From a virus, in the IMG/VR virus record IMGVR_UViG_3300017734_000018, positions 1 to 43,597 of that record: a DNA stretch of 43,597 bases. The stretch is one strand, 5' to 3'. How positions within the stretch are numbered: position 1 is the stretch's first letter; each line of letters starts with the position of its first letter. Both the position numbers and the translations under genes were made by a program. Below, in pieces: positions 16,171-22,650 of this stretch. The notes beneath the pieces were generated by a model. That model worked only from the letters and a program-made list of their open reading frames with translations. It had not been told where the DNA came from and made no database searches.

Positions 16171-16377
16171 TTACTTCTCGTTTCCTAACCAAACAGCAAA
16201 GGCTCCTGTTAATGCTCCTGTGACAGTGGCAGTGAGTGCAGTTGCCTGAGAAGTCATAGCCTCTGGTGGTAAAGACATAAACCACTCGATGACCCTGATG
16301 TACATAAGAGTCATAACTAGCATCATCAGTCTTGGTAAAAGCTTCCAAGCTAAAATGCGTTCCATTGCTACCGTCAT
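16171..16377 (-). CDS. Small membrane protein, possible second holin
   Basis: This is a 68-residue protein from ATG 16377, which overlaps the upstream stop as TAATG and has a GAGGGAG site. A longer GTG start at 16386 is less likely. It contains two hydrophobic segments, around residues 10-32 (LAWKLLPRLMMLVMTLMYI) and 45-63 (ATALTATVTGALTGAFAVW), ending in GNEK. Its position just before the holin gene suggests a role in lysis, such as holin, antiholin or spanin partner. This is inferred. Confidence 0.7.
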   Translation of the reverse strand: MTVAMERILAWKLLPRLMMLVMTLMYIRVIEWFMSLPPEAMTSQATALTATVTGALTGAFAVWLGNEK

Positions 16378-16631
16378 TATTCCCACTCCCTCTTTCTGTC
16401 AGGATCTAGAACATTAAACCTATCGAGCATTCCCTCTAAGTACATAGATCTTTCCATTCTGTCCAAAGATACCCACTTACCAGAATACTGAAGGTAGGCC
16501 TCTCTAGCATAGAAGACTGAACTATGAGGTATGTGTACTCTTTTAAGGATTCTTTCGTTACCATCAGCTAAAGCCTTGTAGAACTCTTCTAGTACTTTGT
16601 CTGACTGGTAGTACTTTACTCTTTTAGACAT
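16377..16631 (-). CDS. Hypothetical protein, first gene of leftward operon
   Basis: This is an 84-residue soluble protein rich in Tyr, Arg and Glu (MSKRVKYYQSDKVLEEFYK...). ATG 16631 has no good ribosome site. It begins about 25 nt after the -10 box of the promoter at 16656-16683, so its leader is very short. I do not recognise the family. Confidence 0.7.
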   Translation of the reverse strand: MSKRVKYYQSDKVLEEFYKALADGNERILKRVHIPHSSVFYAREAYLQYSGKWVSLDRMERSMYLEGMLDRFNVLDPDRKREWE

Positions 16632-16743: not shown

Positions 16744-16834
16744 GTAGGTACTGTTGGTAGATACTAGTAGTATTATAAGTATTATAAGTATAAGAAGTAT
16801 AAGACTACTAGTAGTAACCAACAGTACTACCTAC
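16744..16834 (-). promoter_or_regulatory. Long imperfect hairpin A in leader of leftward operon
   Basis: The arms at 16744-16771 and 16804-16834 can pair at about 25 of 28 positions, with one 3-nt bulge. The 32-nt loop is a tandem of a 9-nt unit (ATTATAAGT, ATTATAAGT, ATAAGAAGT). It lies between the consensus promoter at 16892-16919 and PL1, so it would be transcribed leftward. There is no T-tract after it. It could be an attenuator, an RNA-stability element, a protein-binding cruciform or part of an origin. Confidence 0.65.
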
Positions 16835-16891: not shown

Positions 16892-16919
16892 ATTATATAG
16901 ATACCCGCCCTTTTGTCAA
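16892..16919 (-). promoter_or_regulatory. Consensus leftward promoter PL2
   Basis: On the minus strand TTGACA (16914-16919) is followed after 16 nt by TATAAT (16892-16897). Both boxes match the sigma70 consensus perfectly. The predicted start near 16885 would give a roughly 250-nt leader, containing hairpin A and passing through PL1, before the first gene. This is the strongest promoter by sequence in the window. Confidence 0.8.
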
Positions 16920-16926
16920 CCCCTAA

Positions 16927-17016
16927 GTTACACAAAAGTTGATCACGAATTGTTTCAATTGTTACAAGTATGTTACCTCTGCCTCTGTATCTCACCAAAT
17001 GTTACAGAATGTTACA
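16927..17016. repeat. GTTAC iteron-like direct repeats
   Basis: The pentamer GTTAC occurs five times on the plus strand, at 16927, 16961, 16972, 17001 and 17011. Four of these are GTTACA, and the last two form a 10-nt-spaced pair (ATGTTACAG, then ATGTTACAG). The segment has no gene. Short spaced direct repeats next to C-rich and AT-rich patches are typical of replication origins or regulator arrays. Origin function is an inference. Confidence 0.5.
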
Positions 17017-17185: not shown

Positions 17186-17285
17186 AGTTCAACCTTAAAC
17201 AAAAAGTAGTTTAACATTAAACTATTTACTTATCGAGGTAGTTTAGTATTAAACCATTATTTAAAAACTAGTTTAACGTTAAACC
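17186..17285. repeat. Four-copy palindromic operator-like array
   Basis: Four 16-nt copies of a palindromic consensus AGTTTAACNTTAAACY lie at 17186-17201, 17208-17223, 17240-17255 and 17270-17285. Copies 2 and 4 are near-perfect palindromes around a central dinucleotide, and copy 1 is the most degenerate. Centre-to-centre distances are about 22, 32 and 30 nt, close to whole helical turns, which would place bound dimers on one DNA face. The array lies upstream of the rightward promoters. I see no candidate regulator gene beside it, so the binding protein may be host-encoded or encoded outside the window. Confidence 0.75.
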
Positions 17286-17313
17286 TTTTGTTTACTTCCA
17301 GAAATTTTTAGCT

Positions 17314-17344
17314 TGTGATCACAAAAGAATAAAGCATCTATAAG
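17314..17344 (+). promoter_or_regulatory. Rightward promoter-like unit 1 (TGTGATCACA + TATAAG)
   Basis: The perfect palindrome TGTGATCACA (17314-17323; TTGTGATCACAA when extended) is followed after 15 nt by TATAAG (17339-17344). The palindrome occupies the place of a -35 box. The same arrangement recurs about 64 nt downstream (17378-17407), which suggests a deliberate regulated promoter pair. Confidence 0.55.
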
Positions 17345-17377
17345 AACCCTAACACATTCCAAAAGATGAATACGATA

Positions 17378-17407
17378 TGTGATCACAAAAAGCTTACTCT
17401 TTATAAT
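17378..17407 (+). promoter_or_regulatory. Rightward promoter-like unit 2 (TGTGATCACA + TATAAT)
   Basis: TGTGATCACA (17378-17387) is followed after 14 nt by a perfect TATAAT (17402-17407). There is no conventional -35 hexamer at 16-18 nt other than the palindrome itself, so this may be an activator-dependent or repressible promoter for the rightward early genes. The predicted start is near 17414, leaving about 140 nt of leader before the GP88-family gene. Confidence 0.6.
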
Positions 17408-17554
17408 ATACAAATCCAGGTCAACCTTAAGATGATCTTGATACAACCAGGACGGTCATCACGAAATGTTTCAAATCGGCTGCTCGTCTTGCATCTTTCT
17501 TTTTTGTTTCTAAGTATGGTTTCAGAACACAACAAAACAAAAGGTTTTAAACAG

Positions 17555-18295
17555 ATGGAAAAGCTAACACTTAAAAAAGCAATTGAAGAAAGCGGCAAGG
17601 TTTCTTTGGGCAATACTAAAATGCCAAGCACAACCTTTGCTATAAGCGCAAAGCATTGCAATGTAGGCGGCAAGCTTGTCAACGTTGAAAACTCTACATG
17701 TTCTCGTTGTTATGCTCTTAAGCTTCAAAAGCTTCGCCCGTCTGTTGATACTGGTTGGACAAACAATTTATTCAAAGCGGTTAAAATGATTGAAGAGAAC
17801 CCAAAGCTTTGGGCTAAAATGCAAGCTTTTCAAATAGAAAGAGGGTGCAAAAAACTAGGTGTAAATTATCACCGCTGGTTTGATAGTGGCGATTTACAGT
17901 CTGTTGCAATGTTGCGTGCAATTGTTTTGACAGCAGAAAGAACGCCAGAAATAAAGCATTGGCTTCCTACTCGTGAAGCAAAGCTTGTGAAGTTATATCG
18001 CAAAGAATATGGTCAAGAGCCTAGCAATCTAGTCATCCGTGTCAGCGCAACAATGATAGGGGACAAGCCGATTGCTGGTCATGCTAACACGTCCACAGTA
18101 CACAGAAAAGGTGAAACCATACACGGCAAAGCTTGCTTAGCTTATAGAACCAACAAGAATTCAGAAGTGATTGAAGCACAAGCTTTTAAAGATATGACAA
18201 GAGAACAAAAGAAAGAGCAAGATTTTGGTCATTGTGGTGACTGTCGTGCTTGCTGGTCTAAGACTGTTGATAATATTTCTTATCCCTTGCATTAG
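17555..18295 (+). CDS. GP88-family protein (Cys-rich, possible Fe-S protein)
   Basis: The 246-residue protein from ATG 17555 has an AAGG site 10 nt upstream. An in-frame extension to 17366 is dropped because it covers promoter sequence and looks unrelated. Conserved-looking blocks are NSTCSRCYALK (CxxC at 49-52), HRWFDSGD (106-113), HWLPTREAKL (135-144) and CGDCRACW (CxxCxxC at 227-233). I recall these as the phage 'gene product 88' family. The Cys clusters suggest an iron-sulfur or zinc centre. It is the first rightward gene and may be early. The function is not known to me. Confidence 0.8.
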   Translation: MEKLTLKKAIEESGKVSLGNTKMPSTTFAISAKHCNVGGKLVNVENSTCSRCYALKLQKLRPSVDTGWTNNLFKAVKMIEENPKLWAKMQAFQIERGCKKLGVNYHRWFDSGDLQSVAMLRAIVLTAERTPEIKHWLPTREAKLVKLYRKEYGQEPSNLVIRVSATMIGDKPIAGHANTSTVHRKGETIHGKACLAYRTNKNSEVIEAQAFKDMTREQKKEQDFGHCGDCRACWSKTVDNISYPLH

Positions 18296-22544: not shown

Positions 22545-22650
22545 CCTAGAGTGGGCTGGCGATTTCAATAGGTCTGACTTCCTGCATAAAATGATTGACG
22601 CAGCCAGACAGATGCGAGATAACGGAGAGGTATACTATCCACTATTCTGA
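22483..22650 (+). CDS. Hypothetical 55-residue protein
   Basis: The short frame (MEKRVIPIDQHLRDLQRERDD...) has GGAGA about 8 nt upstream. It has a coiled-coil-like N-terminal half and ends YYPLF just 8 nt before the tRNA gene. It looks like a genuine short helical protein. No family is known to me. Confidence 0.55.
   Translation: MEKRVIPIDQHLRDLQRERDDLEWAGDFNRSDFLHKMIDAARQMRDNGEVYYPLF

Follow-up and report, generated by a model that had tools for sequence, protein, structure and literature searches.

The window, a virus record of 43,597 bp analysed over its whole length, carries two identical copies of the palindrome TGTGATCACA in its divergent control region. They are probably operators for a host AkgR-type regulator of the GntR/FCD family, borrowed for the divergent promoters of the phage, and from the comparison of sequences we put the probability of this reading at about 0.68. 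The strong evidence for TGTGATCACA is its recurrence across genomes. The host sites compared come from RCA-type and related genomes, the RCA group being the source of hosts for the isolates that have TGTGATCACA.

The nearest relative of the window is Roseobacter phage CRP-13 (portal 89% and DNA polymerase 80% identical). Homologous portal and terminase genes and gene order are all present and place the window among the CRP-13-type/HMO-2011-type roseophages, which have the same control region. No terminal repeat was found in the window. The palindromes sit between a leftward arm with endolysin, terminase and portal genes and a rightward arm with early and replication genes (Table 1). Both lie 5' of the likely start of the first rightward gene, the ATG at 17555, which is conserved in relatives; an in-frame ATG upstream of it, at 17366, gives a longer ORF. 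The direct repeat ATCACGAAWTGTTTCAA flanks the control region (16942-16958 and 17458-17474). An AT-rich inverted repeat with 39-nt arms (16748-16827) separates the leftward promoter from the first leftward gene and likely folds into a long 5'-leader hairpin; CRP-13 has an AT-rich tract of a similar kind at the corresponding place. GTTTAAC-N-TTAAAC boxes, found three to four per array and about 31 nt apart (here and, for instance, at 12863-12945 of L002 and 1420-1560 of L271), are kept in CRP-9, a phage without TGTGATCACA, and are probably operators of a phage-specific regulator. A host origin for these boxes was rejected, as the box occurs in just 4 of 41 host-family genomes.

Table 1. Features of the divergent control region of the window and the genes on either side of it.
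Feature	Position	Strand	Basis or remark
First leftward gene, 84 aa, function unassigned	16377..16631	-	opens the endolysin/terminase/portal arm
Sigma-70-type leftward promoter (predicted), perfect TTGACA-16-TATAAT	16892..16919	-	identical sequence in CRP-13
Degenerate operator (putative), TTGATCACGA	16939..16948	.	upstream, at about -58 relative to the predicted start of the leftward promoter
Three GTTTAAC-N-TTAAAC palindromes, at 17206, 17238 and 17268	17206..17288	.	second, probably phage-specific operator family beside the array
Operator palindrome 1 (predicted), TTGTGATCACAA	17313..17324 (core TGTGATCACA, 17314-17323)	.	direct reading and alignment
Conserved block AAAGCATCTATAAG with candidate -10 TATAAG (17339-17344), 15 nt from palindrome 1	17331..17344	+	alignment, motif listing
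Operator palindrome 2 (predicted), TGTGATCACA	17378..17387	.	direct reading; 1 mismatch in the middle copy of CRP-13
Candidate -10 TATAAT, 14 nt from palindrome 2	17402..17407	+	distance varies among relatives
First rightward gene, Gene product 88 family (PF17338)	17555..18295	+	domain match; start conserved in alignment

Read directly from the sequence, the two palindromes start 64 nt apart, as the original prediction had it, and its other readings of the letters hold as well: TATAAG and TATAAT follow at gaps of 15 and 14 nt, the first copy extends to TTGTGATCACAA, and a weaker relative lies at 16939. The 12-mer has no other copy in the whole record. By chance, the expected number of exact TGTGATCACA copies is 0.056 for the window and 0.0009 for the 924-bp intergenic region, and a perfect 10-bp palindrome occurred twice within 100 nt in 1 of 200 Markov-shuffled windows. 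With two mismatches allowed, the window shows no enrichment of TGTGATCACA (23 matches against 22.4 expected), so only the exact copies matter.

A scan of viral sequences located tandem TGTGATCACA pairs in at least 120 viral stretches. When 25 IMG/VR records were scanned whole, 23 held two to four copies, nearly always in one cluster, and a reversed-pattern control gave 0 matches in the same 25. Relatives of the window have two to four exact copies upstream of the GP88 gene, within the divergent control region. The isolates CRP-1, CRP-2, CRP-13, CRP-345 and CRP-603, all from RCA-group hosts, contain one to four exact copies in a single intergenic region each, and none elsewhere in their genomes. 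Exact copies are absent from CRP-9, CRP-207, CRP-3, CRP-212, CRP-738, CRP-125, CRP-4 and HMO-2011, and also from two pelagiphages, one Rhizobium phage, ICBM2 and SIO1; CRP-9 and CRP-207 lack them though they infect the same host group, which speaks against control by a host regulator. Across arrays the left flank is T-rich and the right A-rich (TTTGTGATCACAAA). The array occurs in phages whose terminase and portal families differ, and when array-bearing viral contigs were grouped by gene content, stricter clustering gave five communities and four singletons and low stringency a single component.

Two side observations concern related elements. In the SAR116 phage HMO-2011, the equivalent control region has two palindromes of another sequence, CACTTAAGTG, at 53219 and 53340 (1219 and 1340 of L277), and a third copy lies at 22568; CACTTAAGTG is absent from five relatives tested and is a possible host-specific replacement operator. 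Triplets of TGTGATCACA stand directly before terL in unrelated GC-rich phages (L111, 10440-10483; L091, 4017-4069), which may be an unrelated use of the motif.

Spacing between copies follows the turn of the DNA helix. The spacings in 83 non-redundant arrays are 20-23, 30-34, 39-48, 52-55, 64 and 74-75 nt, with single outliers at 13, 29 and 97. Within 28-58 nt, the range allowed by the viral scan itself, 0 of 105 spacings fall in the troughs at 35-38, 49-51 and 56-58, where 33.9 were expected. At a period of 10.5 bp, Rayleigh R is 0.61, a value that 0 of 20,000 simulations reached, related phages in the set being not fully independent. Flanks differ within the phased set, which also takes in several gene-content communities whose packaging proteins are not the same. 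Such phasing is the behaviour predicted of protein dimers on one helix face.

Literature searches found no bacterial regulator for the 10-mer and, for the 8-mer, AkgR of Rhodobacter sphaeroides, which is of the GntR type. The phage palindrome matches GTGATCAC, which in PMC6365646 (citing Imam et al., 2015) is given among the AkgR binding sites. Those sites were described in a bacterium, whereas the sites here lie in phage genomes. The same palindrome occurs in bacterial genomes as well. Tandem pairs were sought in 84,980 prokaryote species, each represented by a single genome, and 110 stretches came back, many of them from Rhodobacteraceae. TGTGATCACA has 16 copies in IMCC1909 (control, 0) and 15 in a Planktomarina genome (control, 1). 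In Planktomarina-/RCA-type genomes one copy stops 1 bp short of where the gene for a 216-aa GntR/FCD protein is predicted to begin, and two copies, 20-21 bp apart, precede sucC in sucC-sucD-odhAB-lpd; in RCA-type genomes the regulator gene adjoins this cluster (lpd-odhB-odhA-sucD-sucC), the TCA-cycle operon for 2-oxoglutarate dehydrogenase and succinyl-CoA synthetase. We take the genes to be lpd, odhB, odhA, sucD and sucC from recognition of their sequences, and the sucC-type domain was confirmed by analysis. Orthologues of the regulator at 59-74% identity have a site at -11 to -21, and paired sites with 19-23 bp spacing occur in 26 of 41 host-family genomes (control, 0). Elsewhere in the class, just 2 of 189 sampled genomes have an orthologue above 70% identity. 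Phage and host sites have the identical 10-mer, the same A/T flanks and helical phasing in both, with spacings mostly of three to six turns in phages and of two turns in the host pairs.

The RCA regulator is probably of the AkgR type and may be an orthologue of R. sphaeroides AkgR, to judge from its site, its gene neighbourhood and the literature: the site is the same and the neighbourhood fits. Reyranella-type loci have other FCD regulators with the same palindrome, and the exact host protein could therefore differ. Among GntR/FCD proteins of solved structure, McbR of Escherichia coli (PDB 4p9f) is nearest to the host regulator in sequence, though distant and with a different regulon. Sites of two other regulators were rejected: in a CRP-type (cAMP receptor) site the half-sites stand 6 bp apart instead of abutting, and the FNR pattern (TTGAT-N4-ATCAA) does not fit. 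Separately, in Planktomarina-type genomes TGTGATCACA pairs also stand beside a resolvase and a 73-78-aa gene (L186, 5698-5735; L334, 1048-1085; L341), with a spacing of 28 bp in L186 and L334, and these pairs are probably mobile.

A different account, that of the original prediction, makes the palindromes stand-ins for the -35 boxes of a tandem sigma-70 promoter, with a palindrome-to-TATAAT distance that relatives should conserve. In an alignment of the control region (window, L009, L012, L013, L016 and CRP-13), all ten core bases of palindrome 1 are kept in 6 of 6 sequences, forming an invariant island, and AAAGCATCTATAA follows it at a fixed distance, in degenerate form in L009 and L016. The gap from palindrome 1 to TATAA is 15 nt in the window, L012, L013 and CRP-13, the box being degraded to TATGAA in L009 and to TACAAA in L016, and the candidate -10 in the block at 17331-17344 has no good -35 hexamer. 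For this copy, within the clade of the window, the proposed geometry stands. After palindrome 2, however, the gap varies among the aligned relatives (14, ~16, ~21 and 24 nt), and over the 83 arrays -10-like hexamers at gaps of 14-15 show just a mild excess (13 seen, ~6.6 expected), for which reason a general spacing rule was rejected and replacement of the -35 box is not a general design. The palindrome core is also far less variable than the TATAA boxes. What persists of the predicted tandem regulated promoter is a regulatory site in the promoter region, conserved, arrayed, phased and identical to host operators; as a tandem promoter it does not hold generally, and that the palindromes do nothing but replace -35 boxes is very improbable.

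Operators for a phage-encoded regulator that has the same half-site by chance, with the host uninvolved, are unlikely, if less so. The small proteins of the window mostly lack annotation, and a DNA-binding protein could be hidden among them; the GTTTAAC-N-TTAAAC family beside the array, rare in hosts, fits such a regulator too. Yet the 10-mer, flanks and phasing equal those of host GntR operators, the array crosses terminase and portal families, a GntR domain occurs in 0 of 19 array-bearing phage records (the window and 18 others), and no homologue of the host regulator was found in any roseophage record searched. With identical sites and no GntR protein in the phage records, use of the host protein is the simplest reading. 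The array might instead be a decoy, replicating phage DNA titrating the host regulator and altering TCA-cycle expression in the host. Each phage genome has two to four consensus-perfect sites against 15-16 per host genome, and genome amplification would multiply the former, but a decoy would work without helical phasing and without a fixed position in a divergent promoter region; as the sole explanation it is unlikely, though such titration could accompany regulation. The repetition of sites within a large intergenic region that separates divergent modules also recalls iterons of a replication origin. This is hardly credible given that the same sites precede host metabolic genes and that CRP-9 is without them despite a 72%-identical polymerase.

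Under the preferred reading, control by a host AkgR-type regulator, host AkgR dimers would bind the phage DNA on entry at two to four sites on one helix face. Bound AkgR would then control the rightward early promoter at 17339-17407, and early phage expression would follow the carbon/TCA state of the host. The weaker site near 16939 may tune the leftward promoter too. That site reads TGTGATCACG in L012 and L013, and the -35 box lies 21 nt from it in the window, L009, L012 and L013; in CRP-13 the distance is 31 nt, longer by one helical turn. These observations lend the site support, and it plausibly acts on the leftward promoter as a weak operator. As to the direction of control, predicted site centres near -32 in the window favour blocking of RNA polymerase, and sites placed upstream, as at sucC and at 16939, would allow activation.

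Host-regulator sites on phage promoters are already known. Cyanophage genes are under host PhoBR control via Pho boxes, P-SSM2 pstS being cited as a case in a paper that also cautions against false predictions of sites (PMC10976474). The likeness is that phage promoters are read by a host regulator of nutrient status; the Pho boxes, however, serve individual genes under phosphate stress, whereas here an array would bring a central-carbon regulator to the main divergent control region. The literature searched gave no link between AkgR and phages, nor any case of a very abundant marine phage group whose main control region is governed by a central-carbon regulator, and a term search of three roseophage papers (PMC6918029, PMC9038755, PMC8528129) gave no mention of promoters or palindromes.

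The comparisons suggest that many marine phages place their own genes under a metabolic switch of the host. A broader proposal, which we advance tentatively and hold somewhat short of even odds, is of a widespread design in marine roseophages: several unrelated phage groups would have independently taken operator arrays of the host TCA-cycle regulator into their main control region, gating infection by host carbon status, and other operators, such as CACTTAAGTG in HMO-2011, would fill the same slot for other hosts. Cultured RCA host/phage pairs allow a direct test of host control, and TGTGATCACA is usable as a sequence tag for predicting the hosts of uncultured viral contigs. If the reading is true, a very abundant marine phage group would read the central-carbon status of its host via a site of ten letters and a host protein that can be named.
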